The notes under the pieces were generated by a model that had not been told where the DNA came from, searched no databases, and was given only the letters and a program-made list of their open reading frames with translations. From Desulfomonile tiedjei DSM 6799 (GTDB taxonomy: Bacteria > Desulfobacterota > Desulfomonilia > Desulfomonilales > Desulfomonilaceae): a DNA stretch of 64,000 bases. The translations under genes and the position numbers were made by a program. Positions 13,220 through 19,115 of this stretch are shown here, in pieces. Each line of letters starts with the position of its first letter. Positions within the stretch are counted from its first letter, which is position 1. The stretch spans positions 4,406,001 to 4,470,000 of the forward strand of contig NC_018025.1 in NCBI RefSeq assembly GCF_000266945.1. The letters are read 5' to 3'.

Positions 13220-13292
13220 GCTGAAACTCCTCAGACTATTGTTGCTTACGGGAAAATAATGGGAATGAAATACCGCTGAATTATATACCAAA

Positions 13293-13690
13293 TGTCAGAA
13301 TTTTTGTCTGATTGCGAAAAGCGCTTCTCGAAAATTGGTGGGTGCCGGCCTCCGTCCTGGCATATTTTCAATATGATCAATAATATCGACAGAATGGACC
13401 GGCAGGGAGAAACTGTCTCAAAATCAATGAATTTACAGAAAATCGTGCTACGATTCGACATCGTTGTAGGGGCAGGTCTCGTGCCTACCCTCCCGCAATG
13501 ACCGGCACGGAGGCCGGTCACTACTGGGCACCCACGAGGGGCGCCCCTACAATCAGGCCGTGAAGATGATGAGAATTTCGTGCCACGATCTGGGAAAAAT
13601 TTCGACTTTTGAGACAGCCTCGGGACGCCGGTCCCCACCAATATCTTGTATTGGAGCGTAAGATAAACGCCAGAATTTTTTGGAAATCGC
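13293..13690. repeat. Dispersed repeat B, copy 1, interrupted by a MITE-like element
   Basis: The left half (13293-13408) starts TGTCAGAATTTTTGTCTGATTGCG and contains TGCCGGCCTCCGTCCTGGCA. The right half (13622-13690) starts GGGACGCCGGTCC and ends CCAGAATTTTTTGG. Joined at GGACCGGCAGGGACGCCGGTCC, they match intact copies at 18987-19115 and 25731-25832. It fills the gap between the DUF362 gene and the GH57 gene; no gene is seen here. Confidence 0.7.
13409..13621 (+). mobile_element. MITE-like element, copy 1
   Basis: 213 bp bounded by inverted repeats GAAACTGTCTCAAAA (13409-13423) and TTTTGAGACAGCCTC (13607-13621, 12 of 15 matching). It lies inside the palindrome of repeat B, with GGGA on both sides as a possible 4-bp target duplication. 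The interior has G/C hairpins (ACCGGCACGGAGGCCGGT, TGGGCACCCACGAGGGGCGCCCC). It is too short to code for a transposase. The same element lies inverted at 36639-36852. Confidence 0.65.
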
Positions 13691-13691
13691 T

Positions 13692-16082
13692 CTAAAGCCT
13701 GACGGCCAGGCGATGCGCCAATTCCACTAACGTATGAGGCAATTCGCGCATACGATGCCCGAGACTTTTCAGGATACGAAAAACTCCGATCTGGGCTTCG
13801 CCTAATTCAATGCGGCATTCGATTCGCTCACAGAGATCGAGAAACACAATGATTTCTGCTGCGACAGCAGCGTTTCCCTTGGATTTTTGCAGTTGTCCGG
13901 TTAACTGCACAATCCTTGTTCGTATCAGCCGATCGATTTCGCCCAGATCCAGGTTAATCTTCCAGAATCCTGCTTCCTGGAGAATCGCTTCAAGCCCGTC
14001 GGGGAATTTGCCATTCGAGAGTTTGTCAATCTCTTCGATCAGCCTTCTGTTCAAGGAAAAGCGGGCCACGGCAACGAAAGTGTCGGGAAGATAAGCGTCC
14101 TGCTCCACGAGCAGCTTTGCAAGATCCCGGTTTTTTTTGTAATGCGTTTCGAAGAGGCCGGCTTCTGCCTCGTACATCGTGCCCGTGATAGCGTTCAGAA
14201 CCCTGCGGCGCTCTTCAACGAAAAGATCTTTCGCTGAGTAGTATGCTTCTGAAAAATGACGATCCATCTTTCGGCCGAGTTCCGTGACGGATTGGCTTCT
14301 GAACGCCTCGAGCAACTCTTCTTTCGCCTCCGCGTACCGGTATTCGCTTATGTACTCGGTTACCGAGCATCTGACGTCCACTCCACCAAAATAGTGTGCT
14401 GCAACTGCAAGCTTCATACTTTCGGTGGTTATCCTGCTCAGTACGGTCATGGCGGCAACCAGCAGGGTCCTGTCTCCGCTTTGTTCTTTCGTGAAGTCGT
14501 GCAACGCTATTTCGTAACAGTACAGTCTTTTCTTGGGGGGCACATCCTCGAAAACGGAAAGAATGGCTCCATGAGCAGCCACTCTGGGCAAGCCCGAAAC
14601 CTGAGTAATTATCTTGTCCCGGAAAATTTCATCACCTGCTGGATAGGGTTTGAAATTGCTTTTAGCGTTCTTCAACACGGACAGGAAATCTTCAAGGATG
14701 TCAGGATCGAAAGGATAGATGATTTGGATAGCTCTGGCCGCGTACCTGAGAACCTGAAGGCTCTCTATTCCGGAGATATCATCGAAAAACCAGCCGCAAC
14801 TCGTGTACATGAGCATGCGGTTTCTCTGAAGCTCCAGCAACTGCAATCCTTTTATCCGGTCTTCTTTCCTGAGCTGTTTCAGCCCGTGTTTCTTGAAGAA
14901 GGGCCCAATCTTGGGGCGGTTTTCCAACAAGACCTGGATATAATCGTTACGAGCTTCCCACGGATCTTTGAAAATACCTTTGCCCTGCTCTTCATACAGA
15001 GAGTCGGCCCGATCCCGTAGAAGGTCGAGAGCTTCTCTAAGAGGCGCTCTCCATTTCTGGTTCCATTCGGGTTTCTGTGAAATGGAGCAGCCGCAATCGC
15101 CGGACCAGCGACCGACCCCGTGGGCGCAGCTCCACGCCGAGTTCTCGATTATTTCTACTTCAGCTTTGGGCGGATGGAGTGCAAGATACTCTGCATAGTT
15201 GGTTACTCGAACGTCATGCCTTCGGAAGAGTTCTTTGAGTGCATAGGAGAGCGCCATTTCACCGAATCGATGATGATGTCCGTAGGATTCACCGTCTGTG
15301 GCAATGTTGATAACCTGTGGGCGGTCGTCTGTTGTGAATGCGTTCAAAAGGCGGTTTTTCAGCTCTTCTCCGTTATCGAGCAGTTTTTCGAACGCTATTG
15401 CCCTGGATATCGGGCCGTCGTAGAAGAAAATCGCTATAGAAAGCTTTTTGGACAATCGGCATAGATACGGTCTTGAGGGATCGATCGCTCCGTTGTGCAG
15501 AGTCTCCCATTCATGCTTTGGTGCCAGCTTGAATCTTTGCGCCTGAGTTTGCGAAAGGATCGTGAATTTGATGCCCTGTGTCGCCATGATCCGCAGGGAC
15601 TCAAGATCGACGGCAGTTTCCGGCAACCACATGCCTTCGGGATCACGCTGGAATCTCCTGCGAAAGTCTTCAATTCCCCAGATTATCTGAGTAAACTTAT
15701 CCCTGGACGATGCCAAAGGCATGATCATATGATTGTACGCTTGAGCCAGAGCGTTTCCATGGCCGGAGCGTTTTTTCACGCTGGCTGCATCCGCATCGAG
15801 GATAGCCTGATAGGTATCCGGATCGTGTCGGTCCAACCAGGAAAGCAGCGTAGGCCCGAAATCGAAACTGATGTACTCGTAATTATTCAGTACGTCTCTG
15901 AGACGACTGTGCCGATCGAGAATTCGTGCTTGCGTGTTGGGCCTGTAACACTCAAACGCAATTCGCTCGTTCCAATCGTGGAAAGGATGAGCGGATTGTT
16001 GAATTTCAATCTTTTCCAGCCATGGGTTTTCCCGGGGCGGTTGGTAGAAGTGCCCGTGAATGCAAATGTATTTCCTTATCAT
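13692..16082 (-). CDS. Glycoside hydrolase family 57 / DUF3536 protein
   Basis: 796 aa, cytoplasmic (no signal peptide). The N-terminal GH57-like barrel opens with ICIHGHFYQPPRENPWLEKI and has a conserved DGESYGHHHRFGEMAL block around residue 265, expected to carry active-site residues. It also has ENSAWSCAHGVGRWSGDCGCS. The C-terminal ~500 residues are the DUF3536-type helical region. Relatives are annotated alpha-amylase/alpha-mannosidase-like and probably act on glycogen-type or other alpha-glucans; the substrate is unproven. ATG at 16082. Isolated gene flanked by repeats A and B. Confidence 0.88.
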   Translation of the reverse strand: MIRKYICIHGHFYQPPRENPWLEKIEIQQSAHPFHDWNERIAFECYRPNTQARILDRHSRLRDVLNNYEYISFDFGPTLLSWLDRHDPDTYQAILDADAASVKKRSGHGNALAQAYNHMIMPLASSRDKFTQIIWGIEDFRRRFQRDPEGMWLPETAVDLESLRIMATQGIKFTILSQTQAQRFKLAPKHEWETLHNGAIDPSRPYLCRLSKKLSIAIFFYDGPISRAIAFEKLLDNGEELKNRLLNAFTTDDRPQVINIATDGESYGHHHRFGEMALSYALKELFRRHDVRVTNYAEYLALHPPKAEVEIIENSAWSCAHGVGRWSGDCGCSISQKPEWNQKWRAPLREALDLLRDRADSLYEEQGKGIFKDPWEARNDYIQVLLENRPKIGPFFKKHGLKQLRKEDRIKGLQLLELQRNRMLMYTSCGWFFDDISGIESLQVLRYAARAIQIIYPFDPDILEDFLSVLKNAKSNFKPYPAGDEIFRDKIITQVSGLPRVAAHGAILSVFEDVPPKKRLYCYEIALHDFTKEQSGDRTLLVAAMTVLSRITTESMKLAVAAHYFGGVDVRCSVTEYISEYRYAEAKEELLEAFRSQSVTELGRKMDRHFSEAYYSAKDLFVEERRRVLNAITGTMYEAEAGLFETHYKKNRDLAKLLVEQDAYLPDTFVAVARFSLNRRLIEEIDKLSNGKFPDGLEAILQEAGFWKINLDLGEIDRLIRTRIVQLTGQLQKSKGNAAVAAEIIVFLDLCERIECRIELGEAQIGVFRILKSLGHRMRELPHTLVELAHRLAVRL

Positions 16083-16255
16083 GCACTTATCTCAGAAGAA
16101 TGCGTGGCAAGCAGTCTGCAGCCGTAAAGATTTCTCATGGGGCCGCCCTCTCCCGAATCCGCACGAAAGCAACAAAAGAATAGCCATACGGTTCCTCCCG
16201 GTCAAGAAATGAATGCTGCACTGTATCCATTCGGTTACGCGTGGAAGAGCTTTCT

Positions 16256-16514
16256 GCAGCCCCATAGGGGCTGCCCAAGAGTAGCCGTGGGTGCAAAACC
16301 CACGGAAGCGATATGGCTAGTCCTTTTGTCTTCAAGACCCTGAAGGGGTCCACCAACGACATCTGAGAGTTATTGTCTTGTTGGTCGACCCCTTTCAGGG
16401 GTCGTTGAACTATGCTTACGGGCCGCCGCTGTCCACGGGTTGACACCCCGTGGCTACCATTGGGCCGCCCTTCCAGGGCGCAGAATTCTTAGTGGCCGCT
16501 CACCGAATGGTTGC
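16256..16514. repeat. Dispersed hairpin repeat A, copy 2
   Basis: Aligns end to end with 9317-9569: GCAGCCCCataGGGGCTGC, GTAGCCGTGGGTGCAAAACCCACGG, GACCCTGAAGGGGTC, CGACCCCTTTCAGGGGTCG, CCACGGGTTGACACCCCGTGG and CCGCCCTTCCAGGGCGCAGAATTC. It makes up most of the 460-bp gap between the GH57 gene and the TrpF-like gene. Short ORFs across it in both copies are by-products of the repeat. Confidence 0.8.
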
Positions 16515-16543
16515 GCTGCATTGGCTTTGGTTCAGTAGAATTC

Positions 16544-17245
16544 TCAGCAGACAGAAATGTCGCGAAATGCGGTCAGTGCCTGACTCGCAAATCGTCTGAT
16601 TTTGTCAAAGTTTCTGGAGCCGTCCGGATTTTCAACACCTGTGTGGACATCAACCCCATGCGGACGGACGGTGAGCACAGCTTCTCGCACATTCTCAGGG
16701 GAGAGTCCTCCGGCCAGGATTACCGGGACGGAAGCGATGCGCACTATTTCAGCGCTTAGACGCCAGTCATGAGTCTTGCCGGTTGCTCCAATCCTTCCGG
16801 TCACAGGATCGAGCGAATCCAAAATAATTGCGTCCCAAAGCGGAGACTGGAACCGTGGAACGTGTTGCAGAGAAGAATCTCCGTTTACGGTTATCCTCCC
16901 TATGCTCATTACGTGGGGAAGATGTTCCCGAAAACGCTGAATTTCATGGTCGGAAATTTCCCCATGAAATTGAATTGCTCGGCCTCCGGTTTTACACAGC
17001 AGCTCAATAGCTGCATCGGCTCGATTCAGATAGGTGATAATAACGGGCAGCAAGTCACTGGGAAGATCCCGAATTATGCACTTGGTTTTCTCCACATTCA
17101 AATCGTCATGGAGCCCGTGTGGCAATTCCAGGGTAAAGCCTACCGAATTCACCCCGCATTCGTGGCAGAACAGAGCCTCTTCAACGGTCGACACACCTGC
17201 TACTTGCACTATCGGACACCAGTTCAGAATTTGGCCTTTTATCAT
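16544..17245 (-). CDS. TrpF-like (phosphoribosylanthranilate isomerase family) protein lacking the catalytic Cys
   Basis: 233 aa from ATG 17245 (a TTG extension to 17296 is less likely). The (beta/alpha)8 barrel has TrpF landmarks: CGVNSVGFTL, AIQFHG, IILDS (general acid Asp), GATGKTHDW, ILAGGLSPENVREAV and GVDVHTGVENPDGSRNFDKI, which binds phosphate. However, the N-terminal K-x-C-G-x-T is VQVAGVS at residues 13-19, so the catalytic Cys is Ala and Lys is Gln. The gene is not in a trp operon. It may have a different isomerase or binding role, or be a degenerate paralogue. The fold assignment is secure; the activity is doubtful. Confidence 0.82.
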   Translation of the reverse strand: MIKGQILNWCPIVQVAGVSTVEEALFCHECGVNSVGFTLELPHGLHDDLNVEKTKCIIRDLPSDLLPVIITYLNRADAAIELLCKTGGRAIQFHGEISDHEIQRFREHLPHVMSIGRITVNGDSSLQHVPRFQSPLWDAIILDSLDPVTGRIGATGKTHDWRLSAEIVRIASVPVILAGGLSPENVREAVLTVRPHGVDVHTGVENPDGSRNFDKIRRFASQALTAFRDISVC

Positions 17246-17349
17246 GCGAAAGCCCTTACAGAGTCCGGTCTTGTAATCGGAAAAGCCTGGACACAAAAAG
17301 GATTGTTGGATATGTTATCGAATACAAAAAAACATAATTCAAGCCATCT

Positions 17350-17604
17350 ATGTCAAAAAAAGCCACATACGAACGTCCCAGGCTCATCGAGTTCGGTCCC
17401 AATCTCGAAGCATCTGCAGCCTGTTCGACCGGCTCGACGCATGGTTCGGGCAACTGCAATACCGGATACTCCGGTGCGGCATGTACTGTTGGCGGCAATG
17501 TGGGTGCAGGAAATTGCGCAAACGGAAGCGGAAACTGGCTGGTAAATTGTGTTGAAGGTGGAATAGCGATACTTGGACGCTGCACATCCGGGGGCTTTCG
17601 CTAG
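17350..17604 (+). CDS. RiPP-precursor-like peptide with tandem C-x-x-G repeats
   Basis: 84 aa. The leader-like N-terminus SKKATYERPRLIEFG carries a Y-x-x-P-x-L-x-x-x-G pattern, as in leaders bound by PqqD-type recognition elements (lasso and related RiPPs). The rest is Gly/Asn/Ser/Thr-rich with six Cys at 25, 36, 45, 56, 67 and 78. Spacings are 11, 9, 11, 11, 11, and every Cys is followed by x-x-Gly (CSTG, CNTG, CTVG, CANG, CVEG, CTSG). No signal peptide. Divergent from the TrpF-like gene with a 104-bp intergenic region; no maturase or transporter is adjacent. The ribosome-binding site is weak and other frames overlap. Coding status rests on the leader motif and Cys periodicity. Confidence 0.65.
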   Translation: MSKKATYERPRLIEFGPNLEASAACSTGSTHGSGNCNTGYSGAACTVGGNVGAGNCANGSGNWLVNCVEGGIAILGRCTSGGFR

Positions 17605-17734
17605 AACGGAATTATCCTGCTCTGGGACTGGTAATTCTAGAATTCTCGATATCGCGGATGTCAATCGACGCTATTTGGAGCCACATTAGCAGATAACTTG
17701 GTACTCGAGAGATGACCTGTCTTTGCCATTTCGA

Positions 17735-17764
17735 TTGACGTACCTTTGCATTTCATGCTAAAAG
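17735..17764 (+). promoter_or_regulatory. Possible promoter of the lipoprotein gene at 17797
   Basis: TTGACG (17735-17740), 18 bp, then TAAAAG (17759-17764) preceded by an extended-minus-10-like TGC. The -35 is good and the -10 moderate, 32 bp before the GTG start. Confidence 0.45.
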
Positions 17765-17796
17765 AGACGGAATCCTAAATAGTTAGGCAAACGAGA

Positions 17797-18123
17797 GTGC
17801 ACAAAGTCTTAAAATATTTTACCTTGGCCAGTTGCATGTTTTCACTCTCCGTTATGGCAGGCTGCGCGGGCAAGCTCGCTACAGCAGGGGCTGCACGCGT
17901 TGTTCAGGTCGCTCCCACTGGAGTCATGCTTCTGCAATATGAGGATGGAAAGACCTCCTGGAAATTGATCAATCCTGACAGCCCGCGAATCGATACGCAG
18001 ACTGCTGAAAAGAATGTCTTGAAACCGGCTCGTTATGTTGAAACCAAAAAGGGCAGCACCCTGACTTTTCCATCCGGAGACACTATTCTATATAAAGACA
18101 TCCCAACCGATAAGGAAAACTGA
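17797..18123 (+). CDS. Small predicted lipoprotein
   Basis: 108 aa from GTG 17797. Type II signal peptide with lipobox MAGC (Cys at ~23). The mature part (VVQVAPTGVMLLQYEDGKTSWKLINP, then TFPSGDTILYKDIP) looks like a small beta-rich domain, but no family was recognised. Probably anchored in the outer or inner membrane facing the periplasm. It precedes fmdB by 85 bp and may share its transcript. The terminator at 18944-18980 closes the group. Confidence 0.75.
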   Translation: MHKVLKYFTLASCMFSLSVMAGCAGKLATAGAARVVQVAPTGVMLLQYEDGKTSWKLINPDSPRIDTQTAEKNVLKPARYVETKKGSTLTFPSGDTILYKDIPTDKEN

Positions 18124-18208
18124 CGACGTTTATCTTATAAACGGGTTGCAACTTTTTTATCGGAAGCGCATCTTGGAATGATGAAACGGACAAGGAGGAA
18201 TTTCTTTT

Positions 18209-18943: not shown

Positions 18944-18980
18944 AAATCGGAGAGGGATTGTGAATTCCTCTCCGATTTTT
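18944..18980 (+). terminator. Rho-independent terminator of the fmdB group
   Basis: AAATCGGAGAGG (18944-18955) pairs with CCTCTCCGATTT (18967-18978) across an 11-nt loop, and the stem runs into five T. It lies 33 bp after the stop at 18911. Confidence 0.85.
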
Positions 18981-18986
18981 ACTGCA

Positions 18987-19115
18987 AGTGTCTGAAATTT
19001 TGTCCGATTGCCAAAAGCGTTTCTCGAAAATCGGAGGATGCCGTGCCTCCGTGCCGGCACGTTTTCATAATAAATCGACGAGTTCGGTCCGGCAGCGACG
19101 CCGGACCCTACCGTT
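18987..19115. repeat. Dispersed repeat B, copy 2 (uninterrupted)
   Basis: Begins GTGTCTGAAATTTTGTCCGATTGCC, contains TGCCGTGCCTCCGTGCCGGCA and the palindrome GGTCCGGCAGCGACGCCGGACC, and matches the halves of copy 1 at 13293-13690 on either side of the inserted element. It is non-coding and lies between the terminator and mazG. Confidence 0.7.

Follow-up and report, generated by a model that had tools for sequence, protein, structure and literature searches.

A Cys-x-x-Gly repeat peptide of Desulfomonile tiedjei is a probable SCM-type RiPP precursor encoded apart from its candidate maturases

We analysed an open reading frame (ORF) in a 64-kb stretch of the D. tiedjei DSM 6799 chromosome (contig NC_018025.1; hereafter the window). 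The ORF very probably encodes a precursor of the SynChlorMet (SCM) type, a diverged and unlinked variant of a known, uncharacterised predicted system, and we put the probability that it is such a precursor, modified in trans by the radical SAM enzymes ScmE and ScmF, at roughly 0.85. An orphan precursor modified in trans was one of the readings offered by the original prediction, and it is supported: ScmC, ScmD, ScmE and ScmF are encoded in the genome, unlinked to the ORF, and homologues of the ORF keep both the leader and the Cys-x-x-Gly (CxxG) period and co-occur with the SCM enzymes. The predicted assignment of these maturases is supported by leader, core and co-occurrence, gene linkage being absent. 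The SCM system is already named in NCBIfam, which the prediction had missed. In the literature searched, we found no publication naming it by name or accession, so its product appears to be uncharacterised. The ORF would thus belong to a family of modified peptides that is widespread in bacteria but whose chemistry has yet to be characterised.

The reading frame and its surroundings

The six Cys residues of the ORF were recounted and lie where they had been predicted (Table 1), at steps of 11, 9, 11, 11 and 11 residues. Each is followed by Gly at +3 (CSTG, CNTG, CTVG, CANG, CVEG and CTSG), and when the residues beyond the leader motif were shuffled, six CxxG out of six arose by chance in about 2 of 10,000 trials. 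The leader pattern Y-x-x-P-x-L-x-x-x-G, claimed for the first 16 residues, is matched exactly by residues 7–16. Among the 847 open frames of 40–200 aa in the window, this ORF is the sole one in which [YW]xxPx[LIV] is followed by at least three CxxG units. The composition had been described as almost pure Gly, Asn, Ser, Thr and Cys; the description was overstated, as they make up 62% of residues 17–84 (74% including Ala). No tandem repeats were found at the DNA level, so the period belongs to the protein.

Table 1. Features of the precursor gene, in window coordinates
Feature	Position	Strand	Remarks
Predicted ScmA-like RiPP precursor, 84 aa	17350..17604	+	ATG 17350, TAG 17602-17604
Leader head, residues 1-16, carrying YERPRLIEFG	17350..17397	+	from sequence
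Core, six CxxG units (Cys 25, 36, 45, 56, 67, 78)	17422..17604	+	
Promoter-like site TGGACA-17-TATGTT	17288..17316	+	33 nt 5' of ATG; weak

The codon bias of the ORF was 0.041 per codon and that of the +1 frame 0.052, compared with 0.049 ± 0.032 per codon for reference coding frames and -0.006 ± 0.041 for non-coding ones. Since codon bias is uninformative about the frame, the claim that the ORF is coding rests on its homologues. A one-gene transcript could conceivably start from the promoter-like site, one of two such sites observed in the region where 1.0 was expected, which is not significant; no Shine-Dalgarno sequence was evident ahead of the ORF. The neighbours of the ORF are a TrpF-like isomerase, a small lipoprotein-like ORF and an FmdB-type zinc ribbon. 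It had been noted that no maturase is adjacent, and in agreement with this, tblastn with ScmC, ScmD, ScmE and ScmF found no SCM maturase within the window. PADLOC gave no match, Rfam gave nothing above the gathering score at 17000–18200, and Pfam gave only weak matches to the ORF (DUF5972, E 0.36, on the leader). In addition, a dispersed repeat, perhaps a mobile or REP-like element, flanks the precursor on both sides (window 13278–13347 and 18974–19043) and is also present near several Scm genes. We rejected dispersal of the Scm genes by this repeat: it occurs genome-wide, with at least 47 matches (505 first-look candidates), so proximity means little.

When the ORF was compared with the curated NCBIfam models, it scored 15.9 bits (E 0.012) against ScmA (TIGR04252), below the cut-off of 35 bits, and its residues 7–50 aligned with positions 1–46 of the 49-position model; the ORF itself is 84 aa long and has six units. 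Against the StsA sactipeptide model (NF045558) it reached 12.7 bits (E 0.093) of the 42 needed, and no match to the SCIFF model was found in NCBIfam up to E 10, which agrees with the earlier view that the peptide is recognisable neither as a sactipeptide precursor nor as SCIFF. The ScmA and StsA scores are weak, so neither would count alone. With regard to ScmA membership, the ORF has the [YW]xxPx[LIV] leader and CxxG core of the precursors in SCM loci, whereas the accompanying cassette of scmD-E-F and scmC is missing, the enzymes being encoded elsewhere on the chromosome. As it falls short of the cut-off and lacks linkage to a cassette, the ORF was not filed as a curated ScmA. The current ScmA model misses precursors such as this one.

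SCM proteins in the D. tiedjei genome

The 6.53-Mb genome encodes a complete set of ScmC, ScmD, ScmE and ScmF, each above its cut-off and dispersed over the chromosome. ScmD (TIGR04248; C1:5416920) scored 124 bits with a cut-off of 100 (E 1.7e-36) and is the one PqqD-family protein in the genome above the Pfam cut-off. ScmE, at about 2.00 Mb, scored 594 bits (E 6.8e-179) and ScmF, at about 4.94 Mb, 568 bits (E 1.1e-170), the cut-off being 400 bits for both; there are 14 SPASM matches in the genome, and the proteins matched include one ScmE and one ScmF. Two ScmC genes (C1:6106173 and C1:5319641) scored 235 and 183 bits with a cut-off of 125. Using a profile built from four precursors, we also found a second precursor (C1:6111590), which lies 4.5 kb past one of the ScmC genes. 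On the map, the precursors lie at 4.42 and 6.11 Mb, ScmE at 2.00, ScmF at 4.94, ScmC at 5.32 and 6.11 and ScmD at 5.42 Mb; all these genes apart from the ORF occupy five scattered loci other than its own. A single-sequence search with the ORF returned only the ORF itself in its own genome and similar frames in a genome of the same genus; such searches of relatives were noisy, and the signal was clear only with a profile. Precursor profiles, of which the ORF is itself a row, found it in its own genome at 7.5e-16 to 7.9e-27.

Several other genes were noticed during these searches. A PF14907 nucleotidyltransferase gene (7.6e-36; L039:8900-10477) abuts ScmD, and PF14907-like genes were seen within or near six SCM loci of the set (L054, L137, L138, L140, L142 and L144); this nucleotidyltransferase is possibly an unrecognised SCM component. 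Two further radical SAM maturases are encoded in the same genome, one CbpB-like (2.9e-220; L012:1297-2709, C1:213980) and one of the HxsB type (2e-163; L014:550-1905, C1:5911294), so the genome carries several RiPP systems. Additionally, large predicted surface proteins that start with LE-x-LE-x-RIVLD and contain DUF4347/FG-GAP or ELWxxDGT repeats adjoin both ScmC genes (L044:9574-13524 and 13869-16703; L045:7737-9392), and the second precursor sits between two of them. We rejected a link between these proteins and SCM, as the SCM loci scanned in other genomes showed no such protein.

SCM loci and co-occurrence in other genomes

Loci in other genomes were collected by ScmE and the neighbouring genes were located by tblastn. 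The usual gene order is ScmD-ScmE-ScmF-precursor-ScmC. At five loci a small ORF between ScmF and ScmC carries CxxG units behind a [YW]xxPxL leader, at five more the precursor has the same position, and at a locus from the same genus it ends 62 bp ahead of ScmC; at two exceptional loci the precursor is upstream of ScmD. Within the fetched regions of four other precursor loci (L128, L135, L136 and L138) no Scm enzymes were found, and in L138 a PF14907-like gene is the only one near the precursor. Genome mining that is based on clusters is blind to precursors unlinked to their enzymes. On one 25-kb contig (G073:C129), two divergent ScmE-like genes occur together with three precursors (L144:3799-5116 and 13452-13682), which suggests two SCM systems side by side.

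Thirty-six precursors were collected, several of them with a profile or pattern that included the leader and CxxG. The motif [YW]xxPx[LIV], itself a selection criterion, is present in all 36, with Tyr in 33. CxxG is found at 204 of 225 Cys residues (91%), and 145 of 189 Cys-Cys steps are 10 or 11 residues long (77%), 89% falling between 9 and 12. At +6 from Cys, 51% of units have Ala and 21% have Pro, together 72%. The conservation of leader and CxxG is thus due in part to selection, whereas synteny and co-occurrence are independent of it. The original prediction was to fall if no homologues kept the period or the leader; the homologues preserve the two, and the prediction stands on this point.

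It had also been proposed to look for radical SAM-SPASM or RRE proteins that co-vary with the precursor; ScmD, ScmE and ScmF are proteins of these kinds, and the precursor tracks ScmE. We searched 395 genomes of the phylum, accepting ScmE at E 1e-60 or better and the precursor profile at E 0.001 or better. ScmE was found in 26 genomes and the precursor in 23; 21 had both, two the precursor only, five ScmE only and 367 neither. Fisher's test of the precursor against ScmE alone gave p = 4e-28 (6e-27 without D. tiedjei itself), and within its GTDB family the precursor was present in all four relatives with ScmE (G001, G008, G009 and G011) and in none of the 13 without (p = 4e-4); these tests treat related genomes as independent, and the p-values are indicative. 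In both genomes with the precursor only, ScmF and ScmC directly adjoin it on short contigs (L131 and L132). Every one of the 23 precursor genomes carries either ScmE or an adjacent ScmF.

These observations bear on three other explanations. The original prediction had also allowed for a structural repeat protein, and a Cys-Gly repeat protein with a structural or metal-binding role and no relation to RiPPs, or a chance frame, would suit the low-complexity, Gly-rich core and the weak Pfam matches; given the conserved leader, the synteny and the near-perfect co-occurrence with ScmE and ScmF, we find such an explanation barely credible. The CbpB-family and His-Xaa-Ser HxsB maturases are encoded in the same genome and either might take the peptide as its substrate, but this is very unlikely, as the leader and core of the ORF match those of precursors inside SCM loci (the comparison set consisting of SCM precursors) and the presence of the precursor tracks ScmE across the phylum. 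A paralogue that was duplicated away from its cassette and is no longer made or modified would agree with the absence of a linked SCM gene, the weak promoter match and the neutral codon bias. Such decay also seems unlikely, if less so, since the frame has no stop and keeps its six CxxG units and its whole leader, and unlinked precursors recur in the four loci mentioned above.

Possible modification and comparison with known systems

If the ORF is an SCM-type precursor, its leader would bind the PqqD-like ScmD, which would present the core to ScmE and ScmF, and these would act unit by unit along it. The precursor would be used in trans, like the second precursor of this genome and the unlinked precursors of related genomes. 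The nearest solved relative of ScmD is the lasso recognition protein TbiB1; for both ScmE and ScmF the closest relative in the PDB is SkfB, the sporulation-killing-factor maturase, followed by PqqE. In streptosactin, a Cys31-Gly34 alpha-thioether corresponds to CxxG (PMC8172795). On the strength of the relatives of ScmE and ScmF and of streptosactin, the best guess at the chemistry is a series of unnested rings between Cys and Gly: each Cys sulfur would be joined to the alpha carbon of Gly at +3, giving four-residue sactionine rings, up to six in the ORF, with 2 H lost per ring. By analogy, we hold a bond from Cys to the Gly alpha carbon tentatively, at slightly under even odds. The C-x-x-G-x-x-[AP] unit at a step of 10 or 11 makes this a precise crosslink prediction.

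The thioether is drawn from analogy, and generic radical SAM similarity fixes no bond; Ala or Pro at +6 might be an alternative acceptor. A different modification of an SCM-type precursor, such as a link to this Ala or Pro, a beta-carbon thioether, epimerisation or some other radical SAM chemistry, the two enzymes perhaps performing different steps, is a serious possibility, though we consider it somewhat less than an even one. It would account for the use of two different radical SAM enzymes on one core, ScmF being about 27% identical to ScmE, and for the Ala or Pro that 72% of units carry in addition to Gly at +3. On the other hand, this Gly is the strongest constraint after Cys itself, the nearest solved relative SkfB is a sactipeptide-type maturase, and streptosactin contains a CxxG sactionine.

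ScmC is a P-loop protein with an HPr kinase/PEP carboxykinase fold. In the SCM-type reading it would probably add a phosphate to the peptide, which the nucleotidyltransferase beside ScmD may decorate. The P-loop Gly-Lys-x-Thr of ScmC is invariant. Its best sequence match in the PDB was HPr kinase (1.2e-4). For its predicted model, a confident one (mean pLDDT 87), the nearest solved folds were PEP carboxykinases (Z 14.9, rmsd 4.5 over 253 residues). In Foldseek HPr kinase/phosphatase ranked 39th, and the 50 VIA-align matches listed were all PEP carboxykinases; its absence among the matches listed does not exclude HPr kinase for ScmC. HPr kinase homologues phosphorylate lasso precursors, and in pseudomycoidin a nucleotidyltransferase adds a hexose (PMC8498205). 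It is therefore plausible that the product is a peptide with several crosslinks and a phosphate, possibly glycosylated as well. The fuller picture, in which two radical SAM/SPASM enzymes would form about ten unnested Cys-to-Gly(+3) rings at most on a 10/11-residue repeat, combined with HPr-kinase-like phosphorylation, and in which the genes in some species are dispersed and several unlinked substrates share one enzyme set, we regard as less likely than not.

Of the known systems, the SCM cassette of NCBIfam (TIGR04248-TIGR04252: ScmD, ScmC, ScmE, ScmF and ScmA) is the closest. The same maturase families are present here above their cut-offs and the ORF shares its leader and CxxG core with the precursors inside such loci, but the cassette forms one locus, whereas in D. 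tiedjei precursor and enzymes are scattered. Streptosactin is not known to have a YxxPxL leader or a PqqD-like protein of its own. Like the ORF, this type II unnested sactipeptide (StsA/GggA) has Cys-x-x-Gly and a radical SAM/SPASM maturase (PMC8172795), but it has only two rings, compared with six CxxG units in the ORF, and its sequence match is the weak one given above. YxxPxL leaders are also found in lasso precursors, where Ala changes in the motif did not abolish phosphorylation (PMC10368454). The lasso systems with a split B1 (paeninodin, BsfA and pseudomycoidin) combine such a leader with a PqqD-like recognition protein (PMC8498205, PMC10368454) and, similarly to SCM, have an HPr-kinase-like enzyme and a nucleotidyltransferase around the precursor; in contrast, the SCM core is Cys-rich and repetitive, and predicted radical SAM enzymes stand where the lasso systems have enzymes of their own. 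SCIFF and other six-Cys ranthipeptides have six Cys residues and radical SAM/SPASM maturation in common with the predicted system, while the leader of the ORF and the spacing of its Cys residues differ from theirs.
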